Assembly: GCA_028695935.1 (NCBI GenBank)
Contig: JAQVHY010000006.1
Span: 1 to 45,609 of the forward strand
Reading direction: 5' to 3'
Length of the DNA: 45,609 nucleotides
Origin: Desulfobacca sp.
GTDB taxonomy: Bacteria; Desulfobacterota; Desulfobaccia; Desulfobaccales; Desulfobaccaceae
Below, piece by piece: positions 10,914-37,381 of the stretch; positions within the stretch are counted from its first letter, which is position 1, and each line of letters opens with the position of its first letter. A program made the translations under genes and the position numbers. The notes under the pieces are model-generated. The model ran no database searches. It was not told where the DNA came from and saw only the letters and a list, made by a program, of their open reading frames with translations.

Positions 10914-11504
10914 TCAATCTTCTTTGCTGACCACCGTAACATGATTGGTGGACCGCTCCACATAGGGCCAGCTCAGGTGGAGGCTGGCGCGGCTCAGCAC
11001 CCATAACTCAGGAATGATTTCCGAGACCAATTTGCCACCGACAAATACCCGCACTACTGAACTTTCGGAAACCACCACCGCGATGGCTTCGGTTTCTTTG
11101 GTGATGGAGGCCGCGGCCATGTGGCGAGACCCTAACCCTAGGGGCAAATCAATGCCCACCGATGAAGAATTAAGGTATCGGCAGGCCGAGACCGCGACGC
11201 CTTCCCCATTAACCACAAACGCGCCGTCTAATTGCGCCAACTCCTTGATGGTCTCACGCATATTAGGATTGTCAATCCGTTTCACCTCGTCCGGATGTCC
11301 AAACAAGGGATCCAATATCAGACATTTGGATTGGGCCAGCACCGCGTCTGAATCATAGATGATAAACAAGGTGCCGATTTTCCTACCCTCGCGGCCTTCA
11401 CGGGCCAATTCCACCGCCAGGGTGATGACATGTTCCAGCACCTCGCGCTCAACACCCTGTTTTCTGGCGCAAATCTCGTCAAATAGATGGGTATCAGGAA
11501 ACAC
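10914..11504 (-). CDS. Stand-alone DisA_N (DAC) domain diadenylate cyclase
   Basis: DAC motifs LDGAFVVNGEGVAVSACRYL and GLGSRHMAAASITKETEAIAVVVSES; no TM segments and no DisA linker/HhH domains. Confidence 0.85.
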   Translation of the reverse strand: MFPDTHLFDEICARKQGVEREVLEHVITLAVELAREGREGRKIGTLFIIYDSDAVLAQSKCLILDPLFGHPDEVKRIDNPNMRETIKELAQLDGAFVVNGEGVAVSACRYLNSSSVGIDLPLGLGSRHMAAASITKETEAIAVVVSESSVVRVFVGGKLVSEIIPELWVLSRASLHLSWPYVERSTNHVTVVSKED

Positions 11505-13289: not shown

Positions 13290-14597
13290 TTACCAACCCA
13301 GATATTTCCGCACCCGTGGCGGCGCCTTAGCCTGCAGCCAGGTCTTAATTTCGGCCATGCCCGCTTCCAGCACCCGCAGTTTTGAGTCAAGCTCTTCCGA
13401 CAGCGGGCCGGTGCGCCACAGGAGGGACGGGGTCGGACCGGTGGCTTCCCAGGTCCGCAGGGCGAAAAGCAGGCTGCGGAGGTCAGCGCCTCGGACCCGA
13501 TTGGTTAACAGCCGGTCATCGGCCAAGGCGTCATAAAGATAATCCTGGCCCTGATCGGTGCCGATCTGATGCAGCGCGGCCCGGCGCAGCAGACAGGGAA
13601 AACAATAGCCGCAATTGCCCTGAGTTTGGCGGTGCCAGCGGGCGACCACCGGATGAGAGCAGGACAGGGTGTGAGGCAGCAAGACGCGCAACAGTTCCTG
13701 GCTTCGACTGGAAGCCAGCATTTCGCCTTTGGTCTGCCCCTGGTAGGGGTTGACCAGGGGGTGGAGAATCTTTATCTGGCGAAACAGGTCTTGCAAATTT
13801 TGAATGACATAAGGATGGGTGGTGCGGGTGCTGTAGCTGCCCAAACGGTTCAGGGTGAGCGGCGGGTTGAGGCTGATAAAACCGTTTTCCGGGACCAGAA
13901 GCGGCAGCCTCGGCTTAAAGGCCCCGGCCACCGCCAGTCCCAGGGCGATAAACAGCAGGGAGCGGCTCCGGAGGCTTAATTCCGGGGCCTCCAGTTGCAC
14001 CCGTAGGCCTAGATGGTGGACGCGCTCTGCCCCGTAATGTTGGGTCAGGGCCGCGGCCAGATTTTTTTGATACCCGGCCAGTTGTCCGAAATCATAGTGA
14101 CTGACCAATATCAGCCGGTAACCAGCCTCCAGGAAATCGAGGGCCCCGACCAGCGAATCAACCCCGCCGGAAAACAGGCAGACCAGATCCGGTTGCCAAG
14201 CTAAGTGCCACTCCGCCTGGAAGCCTAAGTCAGGGTTTAGTGGTCGGGGCACCAGTTGCCAGCGGTCCCCGGTGAGGAACTCCAAAGCCGGGGTCAGATC
14301 GGTCAGCGGTGCCATCCAGGCCGGACTTACCGGGACTTCCAGAACCAGCTCCCGGGTCCAGGCGTCCGCGGCAGTGGACCGGAGCACCAGCTTGTCCGCG
14401 GCCCAGACGCCGATCGCGAATAGCAGCAATGATTGATATTCCGGGCCGGGAAGCTGGGGGCTGGCCCACAGATGCTGCAGATTATGGTGCACCGTGAAGC
14501 CGGCAGTCGAGGGCCACAGGCTGAGATCAGCCGCATATTTCTCGGGGGTGTAAGGGGTTTCCTGGGGATGACCCCGGACAAAAATTCTAGCCGCCAT
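13290..14597 (-). CDS. qatC: QueC-like PP-loop ATPase / 7-cyano-7-deazaguanine-synthase-like protein (QatC-like)
   Basis: PP-loop FSGGVDSLVGALDF; C-terminal zinc motif C-(SHPVV...)-GNCGYCFPCLLRRAAL; ~140-residue N-terminal extension absent from housekeeping QueC; overlaps the upstream QatB-like gene by 11 nt. Confidence 0.75.
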   Translation of the reverse strand: MAARIFVRGHPQETPYTPEKYAADLSLWPSTAGFTVHHNLQHLWASPQLPGPEYQSLLLFAIGVWAADKLVLRSTAADAWTRELVLEVPVSPAWMAPLTDLTPALEFLTGDRWQLVPRPLNPDLGFQAEWHLAWQPDLVCLFSGGVDSLVGALDFLEAGYRLILVSHYDFGQLAGYQKNLAAALTQHYGAERVHHLGLRVQLEAPELSLRSRSLLFIALGLAVAGAFKPRLPLLVPENGFISLNPPLTLNRLGSYSTRTTHPYVIQNLQDLFRQIKILHPLVNPYQGQTKGEMLASSRSQELLRVLLPHTLSCSHPVVARWHRQTQGNCGYCFPCLLRRAALHQIGTDQGQDYLYDALADDRLLTNRVRGADLRSLLFALRTWEATGPTPSLLWRTGPLSEELDSKLRVLEAGMAEIKTWLQAKAPPRVRKYLGW

Positions 14598-15330
14598 ATG
14601 TCGCTGTCAGACCGCGCAACAGTTGCTGAAGTTGTCCGTCGAGCCAGGCCATGGTTTGGGGGGCGGTCCAGGCCAGGTCAAAAGGCTCGGTCCCGGCGGG
14701 GTCGAGAAATATTTGCGCCTTAATAAAATTGCGGAGTTCTTGCAGACGCTGCATCCCGGTCCGGGTATCCTCGACCTGGGCCTCCACCGCCTCTCCCAGG
14801 TCAGCGGCCAGTTTTTGGAACACGGCGGTTGCTAAGAAATTTTTTAACTGGTCAGCAATGGCAGCCGGGGCACCGTTGCCCGGACCGCGGTCCGCCCAAC
14901 CGTAATAATCTTCAGTACTTCCGGCTAATTCGTCTGCCAGGACATCGATCAGCGCCGAACGGGCTACGGCTGCCTCCAATAAGGCCCCGGGGCCAGCTAA
15001 TCTATCGATCAGGGCCGGAAGCCAGGTTTGCGGCGGACGGCCGATGTGGTTTTCCAGGCCCAGGTCCTTGAGGGTCTGAGCCAGCCCCTGCCGGGCTAGC
15101 TGTTGATAAAAGGCGGCCAGATTATGCGCGACTTGCTGAATATGATAAAAATGTCCGGTAGCCGCCTGGGTTTCAGGTATGCTATCGGCTAAGGCCATGG
15201 CATAGCGGGCCGCGACCTCGGCGACCGCCACCTGACCGGTGTTGTGGGGGGAGCTGAACCTGGCCATAGAGGCCTTGGCCTGGCGCCAGAACTTTCCGGT
15301 CGGGGCCTTACGGCCCGCGGATGTGCCCAT
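14587..15330 (-). CDS. qatB: QatB-like protein (Qat anti-phage system associated)
   Basis: N-terminus MGTSAGRKAPTGKFWRQAK resembles the MGTS start of QatB proteins; ATG at 15330 has GGAG 7 nt upstream, better than the tool's TTG at 15351. Overlaps qatC-like gene. Confidence 0.6.
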   Translation of the reverse strand: MGTSAGRKAPTGKFWRQAKASMARFSSPHNTGQVAVAEVAARYAMALADSIPETQAATGHFYHIQQVAHNLAAFYQQLARQGLAQTLKDLGLENHIGRPPQTWLPALIDRLAGPGALLEAAVARSALIDVLADELAGSTEDYYGWADRGPGNGAPAAIADQLKNFLATAVFQKLAADLGEAVEAQVEDTRTGMQRLQELRNFIKAQIFLDPAGTEPFDLAWTAPQTMAWLDGQLQQLLRGLTATYGG

Positions 15331-15437: not shown

Positions 15438-16784
15438 TCATACCCCTTCCCCGGCAGCCAAATTTTTGAGGCGGCTGTAACGTGGCCAGGAAAATTCCGG
15501 CCAGCACGGGAAAATCGAATTGTTATGAAACAGCGGTTCCGACTCCAGATCATAGCGCGAGACTTTGAGGGCTTCCGACCACAAAGCAGTATGCGGAATC
15601 GGAGAATATTGGGCCAGGACCGGGGTGGCGCCCAAGGCCCGCACCTGCCGGATGGCCTCGACGATCGCCGCATCCTCCTGGTGGGGCAGACCGATGAGCA
15701 GATAGACCCCGAGTTCGTCCGCCCGAAAACCCGCTTCCTGAAGCGCGGCCAGGGCCTGTTCCAAATCACCGGCCTGGACCTTGCTATCCAAGCGTTTGGG
15801 GCCCAGGGCGGTAGTTTCCAGACCCAGGCGCAAAGTGGCAAAATTGGCCTTTTTCAGCCACTCGGCCACCAACGGGGTGATCAGCTTCAGGTGCAGGCCG
15901 TTGGGGGTATGAAACCTTAAATTTAATCCCCGACTTAACACCCCTTCGAGGATGGGCAATAAGTGCGATTCGGCATTGATTAACAAGGCATCGTCATATA
16001 AGGCGACTTCATTTGATCTCAAACGAGCCTGCCAATAGGTTAGCTCCTCGACCACCGCGGCCGGGCGGCGTTGCTGAAATTTAGGTTGCAGCAGTTTGGA
16101 GGCGCAATAGGCACAGTCTAGGGGACAGCCGCGGGAGGTGAGTAGGGGGATCAGACCGCGTTCGCTAAGCAGGTGCAGAGCCGGGTAGGGGAGGGCATCC
16201 AGGTCGTCCAGAACCGGCGGCACAGGGCGATTCCAGCCAGTCAATTCCGCGAGCAGGGGCAGAATCTCCGGTTCCCCGGGGCCGGTCCGCACCAGGTCGG
16301 CGCCGCTGTAACGCCGGGCATGTTCCGGGCATAAAGTGGCGTAGATGCCTCCCAGCACCACCGGCACGCCGGGGAAATGGTCCCGAACCAGCCTGATGAC
16401 CGCCTGTACGCCAGGATACCAGTAGGTCATCAGAGAAGTCACCAGCACCGCCGCGGGCCGGGGAGTGCCATGTAGCTTTTCTCGAAATGCTGCTTCGCTG
16501 ATCCCATAACGGCCATAGCGGCGGGGGATGCCTCGCAGAGGATTGGGCGTTGGCAATGGTTCTTTATGATAGCGTCCGGTGACGGAATGGTCTTTCGACG
16601 GCAAGTCTTTGACGATATTCCGGTCTAAGGATCGTTCTAAACAATCAATAAATCTTACCGCGTAGCCCTGTGCCAACAGCCTCCCAGCCAGGTATAATAA
16701 TCCCAGCGGCCGAGCAAAAAAGTCGTGAGCGGCAAAATCGTAAATCCAAGGGTTGATCAACAGGATAGTGGGCGGGTGGTTCAC
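15438..16784 (-). CDS. B12-binding domain radical SAM protein
   Basis: Radical SAM motif TSRGCPLDCAYCASKLLQP (CxxxCxxC), N-terminal cobalamin-binding-like region (VLLINPWIYDFAAHDFFARPLGLLYLAGRLLAQG; VVLGGIYATLCPE). Confidence 0.85.
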   Translation of the reverse strand: MNHPPTILLINPWIYDFAAHDFFARPLGLLYLAGRLLAQGYAVRFIDCLERSLDRNIVKDLPSKDHSVTGRYHKEPLPTPNPLRGIPRRYGRYGISEAAFREKLHGTPRPAAVLVTSLMTYWYPGVQAVIRLVRDHFPGVPVVLGGIYATLCPEHARRYSGADLVRTGPGEPEILPLLAELTGWNRPVPPVLDDLDALPYPALHLLSERGLIPLLTSRGCPLDCAYCASKLLQPKFQQRRPAAVVEELTYWQARLRSNEVALYDDALLINAESHLLPILEGVLSRGLNLRFHTPNGLHLKLITPLVAEWLKKANFATLRLGLETTALGPKRLDSKVQAGDLEQALAALQEAGFRADELGVYLLIGLPHQEDAAIVEAIRQVRALGATPVLAQYSPIPHTALWSEALKVSRYDLESEPLFHNNSIFPCWPEFSWPRYSRLKNLAAGEGV

Positions 16785-16785
16785 C

Positions 16786-17274
16786 TTATCTTAAGGCCCG
16801 ATTCACCTCGAATTGCCTACTGGCCAGATGGACAGGCTGGTGCTGTTCAAGAATAACCGGAGCCTGGCCATACCGGCGACCACGGCCCCGCCTCAGCTCT
16901 TCAACATCCGGAGTCACCAGCAGGGAAAAACTTATGAAAATCAGGCAAATCACGACAAATGCCAGGGTAATAACTGCTCTGGTGCTGCCCTTGCCGATGA
17001 GACTTCTAAATAAACTCAGAATCATCTGCCAGTGTAAAATGATATGGATGACCAGTAAGGTGAGTAAAGTCAGGGCCAGGTAGAGATGGATGGACCCCCA
17101 TTCATGGCGGTCCAGGCCCAGCCAGAAAAGGTCAACGTTACGGCCATATACCTCCCACCTCTGCTCGCCCGGGATGAGGACATATTTTATCAGAAAGCCG
17201 ATCCCGGCGATGGCGCACATAATCACAAACATCAGAGCATCAATAACAAAATTAACCTTGGCTTTAGTCCACAT
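16786..17274 (-). CDS. DUF4405-like membrane protein
   Basis: TM segments with conserved His (HEWGSIHLYLALTLLTLLVIHIILHWQMI), typical of DUF4405/cytochrome b561-like small membrane proteins. Confidence 0.65.
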   Translation of the reverse strand: MWTKAKVNFVIDALMFVIMCAIAGIGFLIKYVLIPGEQRWEVYGRNVDLFWLGLDRHEWGSIHLYLALTLLTLLVIHIILHWQMILSLFRSLIGKGSTRAVITLAFVVICLIFISFSLLVTPDVEELRRGRGRRYGQAPVILEQHQPVHLASRQFEVNRALR

Positions 17275-37009: not shown

Positions 37010-37381
37010 ATGTATGAATTAAAGATTATTACCCAGTTTTCCGCGGCCCATCGGCTGGAAAACTTCTATGGCAAATGCGAAGCCTTGCATGGGCATAACT
37101 GGAAGGTTGAAATTTTTGTGGGTGCAGCCTCCCTGGATGAGGCGGGGTTGGTACGAGATTTCGGGAAGATCAAGGCCGCGGCCCAGGAGGTTTTGGAGGA
37201 GGTCGATCATACCTATCTCAATGAGTTGGCAGCCTTCCAAAACCAAAATCCTTCCTCCGAAAATCTGGCCCGTTATCTCTTCGAACGTCTCAGCCCGGTG
37301 ATCAACGATGACCGGGTCAGGGTCACCCGGGTGGCGGTCTGGGAGTCGGATACCAGCAGCGCCGCTTATTACCTCCCTTAA
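37010..37381 (+). CDS. queD: 6-carboxytetrahydropterin synthase QueD / 6-pyruvoyl-tetrahydropterin synthase family
   Basis: FSAAHRL...GKCEALHGHNWKVEI, DFGKIKAAAQEVLEEVDHTYLNE, VAVWESDTSSAAYY. Confidence 0.9.
   Translation: MYELKIITQFSAAHRLENFYGKCEALHGHNWKVEIFVGAASLDEAGLVRDFGKIKAAAQEVLEEVDHTYLNELAAFQNQNPSSENLARYLFERLSPVINDDRVRVTRVAVWESDTSSAAYYLP

Follow-up and report, generated by a model that had tools for sequence, protein, structure and literature searches.

The qatB-qatC locus

Two adjoining genes for homologs of QatB and QatC are located on the reverse strand of the analysed stretch of Desulfobacca sp. DNA, which comprises 45,609 nucleotides and is referred to as the window. The upstream gene qatB (14587-15330, minus strand) encodes a protein of 247 aa that begins MGTSAGRKAPTGKFW, with its ATG at 15330, while qatC (13290-14597, minus strand) encodes a QueC-like PP-loop enzyme of 435 aa with the N- and C-terminal extensions of QatC. 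According to the ORF coordinates, the end of qatB and the start of qatC overlap by 11 nt (14587-14597, minus strand), in agreement with the preliminary description of this DNA. Translation of qatB from the ATG at 15330 gives MGTSAGRKAPTG, a purine-rich GGAGAAAAGAA is present just 5' of this codon, and the ATG was taken as the right start; the 254-aa version of QatB given in the preliminary description arises from a TTG further upstream.

In the profile comparison that the preliminary description had proposed, QatC reached 347 bits against the NCBIfam model NF041925, above the curated cut-off of 280, and 343 bits against the PADLOC model of QatC. A profile search also matched the QatC of PDB entry 9vlk at 1.4e-89, and the match to the Pfam family QueC was weak (32 bits). 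QatB was matched by the PADLOC QatB model with 49.5 bits and by NF041924 of NCBIfam with 62.8 bits, the latter being under the curated cut-off of 100. Since QatB is divergent, two extra tests were carried out, a profile comparison with the PDB and a comparison of the predicted fold. With a profile built from the QatBs of the order Desulfobaccales, QatB chains were retrieved from the PDB entries 9vll (5e-11) and 9zee (1.6e-7). The AlphaFold2 model of QatB (pLDDT 79) yielded as its sole matches under E 0.001 the QatB structures 9y01 and 9y02, both with a probability of 1.00, and the TM-score against 9y01 was 0.59/0.66. Because the NF041924 cut-off was missed, yet both the PDB profile and the fold matched, the product of 14587-15330 is designated, on profile and predicted fold, a divergent QatB homolog. 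The two-gene QatB-QatC cassette put forward in the preliminary description is thus real, and chance is excluded because QatC recurs in 25 and QatB in 23 genomes of the order.

Conserved residues of QatC and QatB

The residues of QatC were assigned by alignment with the QatC chain of PDB 9zee, the numbering of which agrees with that of the P. aeruginosa residues in PMC13279940. The FSGGVDS loop for binding ATP pyrophosphate occupies residues 142-148 (14154-14174, minus strand), where S143, D147 and S148 correspond to P. aeruginosa S156, D160 and S161 and are invariant in 23 QatCs of the order. The loop contacting the substrate and QatB spans N244-H261 (13815-13868, minus strand), equivalent to P. 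aeruginosa N265-H282; its Thr257 and Thr259 are the counterparts of T278 and T280, and T257, R258, T259 and H261 are invariant across the QatCs of the order and the canonical QatCs alike. The zinc motif is formed by C313, C329, C332 and C335 (13593-13661, minus strand), which represent P. aeruginosa C334, C354, C357 and C360 and are likewise invariant. In P. aeruginosa numbering, S156, D160, S161, R233, N265, R272, T278, R279, T280, H282 and the zinc cysteines are kept in 23/23 QatCs of the order, so that all of these carry the SGGxDS motif, the zinc cysteines and Thr278/Thr280. Mutation of S156/S161 or T278/T280, or deletion of the N265-R279 loop, resulted in loss of defence in the published system (PMC13279940).

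Two other features of the published enzymes are absent from the Desulfobaccales QatCs. Asp63, named among the conserved residues of QatC (PMC13329287), is Asp in 0/23 QatCs of the order versus 10/10 canonical QatCs covering the site, and its equivalent in the QatC of the window is Ser56. The basic patch R407/R410/R414, which is used for QatB binding and needed for defence in P. aeruginosa (PMC13279940), is not kept in the order either, and it is variable in canonical QatCs too. As Asp63 is a single residue outside the curated family definition, the assignment as QatC stands, as a variant.

The N-terminal tail of QatB (residues 1-25; 15256-15330, minus strand), with Gly2 as the predicted acceptor, was delimited by alignment and column entropy. 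Among 21 QatB sequences, for which the first start codon or MGTS was used as the gene start in the relatives, the residues M1, G2, T3, S4, R7, P10, W15 and A18 are invariant, and every one of the proteins therefore shows the MGTS start with a downstream Pro and Trp. Column entropy is at its minimum within the protein over residues 1-25 (0.95 bits vs 1.5-2.2 elsewhere), while most of the 21 QatBs are only 28-37% identical to that of the window. The first helix of QatB is predicted to begin at residue 13. Between the window's genome (G000) and its relative G001, QatB shares 52% identity vs 75-100% for the neighbours, which makes qatB the fastest-changing gene in the compared stretch.

Genomic neighbourhood

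A gene for a B12-binding-type radical-SAM protein (15438-16784, minus strand), recognised by the Pfam domains B12-binding and Radical_SAM, adjoins qatB and is found immediately upstream of it in 18 genomes from both families of the order. In G023 it accompanies qatB without qatC, and in G007, G010 and G018 it resides on a contig other than that of qatB. Membership of this gene in the module is uncertain because the family is common in the phylum without qatBC, being present in 70/120 genomes outside the order, nearly all of them devoid of QatBC. The protein matched characterised families only far below their cut-offs and gave one weak match in the PDB. Nearly all genomes of the order encode this radical-SAM family, the N-terminus of which reads LINPWIYDFAAYD, and it has no close counterpart among solved structures.

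Across the order, the neighbours of qatBC comprise polA, tilS, a K+ channel with a cyclic-nucleotide-binding protein, queD, purC, ribosomal protein S1 and dnaB, of which polA, PurC and some others were named by eye from sequence. No defence gene was found near qatBC, and 10 further proteins of the window had no PADLOC match. The view of the preliminary description that the pair sits among core genes and not in an obvious defence island is borne out. A DUF4405 membrane protein encoded at 16786-17274, between the radical-SAM gene and polA, occupies this place only in the genus of the window and is less conserved than the flanking genes (77% vs 91-93%, G000-G002). The window also encodes, at 10914-11504, a stand-alone protein of the diadenylate cyclase type with a DAC domain, the best match of which was DacZ (134 bits vs a cut-off of 430).

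Missing partners and deazapurine genes

No QatA or QatD homolog was detected in the window by BLAST against ORFs of at least 90 aa. In the whole genome, QatA had no match, and the QatD model retrieved just one ordinary TatD on another contig (88 bits vs a cut-off of 230). The preliminary description had noted that neither the ATPase nor QatD accompanies the pair, which holds true genome-wide apart from the ordinary TatD; an unlinked effector of the QatA or QatD type, for which it allowed, was looked for genome-wide and not found. A 711-aa KAP-type protein in one other genus of the order scored only 24-26 bits against the QatA model, and neither QatB nor QatC was found next to it.

A true QueC is encoded at G000:C43:41465 (175.6 bits vs a cut-off of 150.3) and adjoins QueE, which answers the question raised earlier of a separate housekeeping queC, and QueD is encoded in the window at 37010-37381. 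Since QueD and QueE/QueC are all encoded, 7-carboxy-7-deazaguanine, a candidate substrate, should be made by the cell. Near queE-queC on the same contig (L069:2582-6637, G000:C43) there are three similar adjoining ORFs that appear by eye to be DNA methyltransferase-like (DLIYLDPPFNSQ), one of which contains a masked stretch.

That QatC is simply the preQ0 synthase (QueC) of the organism is scarcely credible. The weak Pfam match to QueC speaks for such a role; the separate QueC beside QueE, the failure of E. coli QatC to complement queC (PMC13329287), and the Thr-x-Thr in place of the Tyr/Asp substrate site (PMC13279940) all speak against it.

Distribution and linkage

The bacteria of the order Desulfobaccales live in soils and sediments, and the records behind the loci of the order include Desulfobacca and Desulfobaccales. 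QatC was identified in 25/29 Desulfobaccales genomes, that of the window included, two of the 25 being fragments, and QatB in 23. Of the four genomes without QatC, three have a completeness of just 69-73%. The remaining one, G013 (95% complete), lacks QatB and the radical-SAM gene as well. An evenly drawn sample of 398 genomes of the phylum showed QatC in 17/18 from the order vs 10/380 others (Fisher p 5e-22). The minimal QatBC arrangement proposed in the preliminary description is thus supported on a larger scale than was claimed there, the pair being retained without QatA and QatD by almost all species of the order.

Both genes occur in 23 genomes of the order, and in 19 of these the two share a strand, with qatB upstream of qatC at a distance of up to 951 nt, which confirms the conserved linkage in relatives. 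Neither of the sequence-level outcomes that the preliminary description had named as fatal to its proposal, a lack of QatB homology and of linkage in relatives or a sole QueC in the genome, was observed. The locus is broken at contig ends in G006, and in G007, G010 and G023 both genes are kept on different contigs; G023 additionally has a contig identical to G018 at the qatBC locus, perhaps through contamination. Because the genomes of the order are mostly draft metagenome assemblies, the absences and unlinked cases in single genomes are weak evidence, and the conclusions rest on the order-wide pattern.

Elsewhere in the phylum, five QatCs exceeded the cut-off. Those of G078, G157, G195 and G242 belong to full ABCD operons, while that of G045 is N-terminally incomplete and followed by QatD, with no QatB found beside it. 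All nine plasmid neighbourhoods of QatC that were opened look like ABCD operons, although in two of them QatA and QatB are not annotated as such and their positions are taken by a P-loop NTPase and a hypothetical gene; no QatB match was obtained in the plasmids. QatC of the order type was not found in viral contigs, and the only two matches in annotated phages were weak, covering 48% of the query at 27.8% identity. There is precedent for QatC without QatA, because qatA is beside only 34% of the genes of the QatC cluster (PMC13329287). No description of an order-wide inherited QatBC was found in the literature that could be searched.

Several Desulfobacterota encode a QatC-like protein of ~700 aa (L066:7668-10533 in G043, L206 from ~4779 on, L207 from ~5255 on, and the fragment L060), which is preceded by an ORF of ~260 aa with an MGHVRLGxLPRxRxW start that had no Pfam or PADLOC match. 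By appearance, this is a further QueC-like enzyme, and the product of the ORF is a possible partner with an N-terminal glycine. An ORF of 188 aa at L205:2062-2628 (G214), with the start MGTSSNQPSPKTPSW, precedes a 429-aa QatC-like gene and likewise had no Pfam or PADLOC match.

Inheritance and origin

The distances among the QatCs of the order correlate with those of rpoB (Mantel r 0.90; 0/9999 permutations as high), and the two trees have 11/18 splits in common, with every genus sampled more than once being recovered. The exact rpoB topology was mildly rejected for QatC (AU p 0.016), and most of the conflicts are located at weakly supported QatC nodes. The qatBC pair is vertically inherited in Desulfobaccales, and QatC largely tracks the rpoB tree. 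For close pairs of genomes, dN/dS amounted to 0.18-0.23 for QatC and 0.28-0.40 for QatB, values that indicate purifying selection. This near-universal retention from parent to offspring suggests that the pair is now a built-in part of these cells. A horizontal island was considered on account of the GC content of QatBC (61% vs 53%) and rejected, as the radical-SAM neighbour is raised too and the GC of qatBC follows that of the host across the order.

In a tree rooted with QueC, the QatC clade of the order is placed among the QatCs of ABCD systems, with a support of 27-45% at several deep nodes. Judged from this tree, reduction from an ABCD system is slightly favoured over an ancestral state, and just slightly because the QueC root is too distant and the deep support is poor; the "ancestral" module of the preliminary description is not supported. 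The sister-like QatC of G045 gives no help in choosing between an ancestral and a reduced state, since its N-terminal part is missing and no QatB was found beside it.

Relationship to known systems

The closest likeness is to the QatB-QatC complex of the qatABCD system, which is represented by 9y01/9y02 from P. aeruginosa and by the further QatBC entries 9zee/9zef and 9vlk/9vll (PMC13279940). Common to both are the QatC fold with SGGxDS, Thr-x-Thr and the zinc site, the helical fold and MGTS start of QatB, and the position of qatB just before qatC. In the published system QatBC alone suffices against some phages, a likeness that the Desulfobaccales pair may share. Unlike the qatABCD system, which is patchily distributed, the Desulfobaccales pair is without qatA and qatD, vertical and near-universal in one order; its QatB shows just 28-37% identity in most of the order, and Asp63 and the basic patch are not kept. 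The tail of QatB is also short, with a helix from residue 13, in contrast to the flexible tail of ~65 residues in P. aeruginosa QatB (PMC13279940).

As in type IV CBASS, where Cap9 acts, a QueC-like enzyme is combined with a partner that has an N-terminal glycine acceptor, which is shown for CBASS and would apply here by analogy. The partner of QatC is QatB and not a CD-NTase, and QatC exceeds Cap9 in length and carries Thr-x-Thr at the site of the Tyr/Asp of Cap9 (PMC13279940, PMC13329287). QatC belongs to the same PP-loop/zinc superfamily as QueC, from which it differs by its substrate site and by the extra N- and C-terminal extensions, and a true QueC is encoded elsewhere in the genome.

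Proposed mechanism and biological role

Published QatBC forms a 1:1 complex in which Gly2 of QatB is essential; it blocks lambda on its own, and QatA and QatD affect the range (PMC13279940). Extrapolating from this and the work on Cap9, QatC would bind QatB, whose Gly2, exposed once Met1 is cleaved off, would enter the active site of QatC. At the expense of ATP, the enzyme would then activate a small molecule with a carboxylate group, which may be 7-carboxy-7-deazaguanine or a relative, and join it to Gly2. The Thr-x-Thr site of QatC may imply a substrate other than 7-carboxy-7-deazaguanine, and the reaction was not reconstituted (PMC13279940). Modification of a partner protein, as suggested in the preliminary description, agrees with the published findings (PMC13279940) and with the invariance of MGTS in the tail of QatB. 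Less certain is the further step, in which the modified QatB may be the working immune protein and the pair an intrinsic anti-phage module. We regard it as somewhat probable that QatBC of Desulfobaccales is a natural module that confers intrinsic defence through N-terminally modified QatB, with QatA and QatD not being needed. In favour of the module is the tail of QatB, which is better conserved than the rest of this rapidly changing protein, and the rapid evolution fits defence.

Doubt on the biological role comes from the order-wide vertical inheritance among core genes, which is unusual for defence. That no defence gene was found nearby, and that Asp63 and the basic patch have been lost, also counts against the favoured reading. 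The pair might instead have been domesticated, with QatC modifying QatB for a housekeeping or stress function and not for phage defence, a reading that we hold to be rather unlikely. The presence in 25/29 genomes, the vertical inheritance, the core neighbours from polA to dnaB, the retention of both genes even where unlinked (G007, G010, G023), and the loss of Asp63 and the basic patch all agree with it, but QatB outpaces its neighbours to an extent that better befits an immune protein, and elsewhere QatBC has been shown to defend on its own (PMC13279940). In a related and equally doubtful form, QatBC would constitute not a defence system but an order-specific core pathway of protein modification, in which QatC, perhaps in concert with the radical-SAM enzyme, would attach a small molecule to Gly2 of a rapidly evolving partner.

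It is improbable that the radical-SAM protein is a third component that makes or alters the compound joined to QatB, or modifies QatB itself. Its occurrence outside the order, its separation from qatB in three genomes and the ability of published QatBC to work without such a protein weigh against this role, for which its place immediately before qatB in 18 genomes spanning the two families and its pairing with qatB in G023 can be cited. Still far less probable is that the pair is the decaying, functionless remainder of what was once a QatABCD system: neither QatA nor QatD is present and the QueC-rooted tree hints at descent from ABCD, but the ORFs are full-length, the dN/dS values contradict decay, and the active-site and tail residues are invariant in the order-wide set.

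One lineage appears to have relied on QatBC alone ever since the order arose from its common ancestor, whereas the published systems shown to work on cloned QatBC also carry QatA and QatD. The order-wide alignment narrows the key residues, since the MGTS-P-W tail and Thr-x-Thr stay and Asp63 and the basic patch do not, and the Desulfobaccales QatBC offers a clean system for finding the reaction and the substrate of QatC. The question is thereby raised of whether QatBC provides intrinsic immunity or performs a cellular job; if the core pathway were true, the QatABCD systems and the Desulfobaccales pathway would be two uses of one module.
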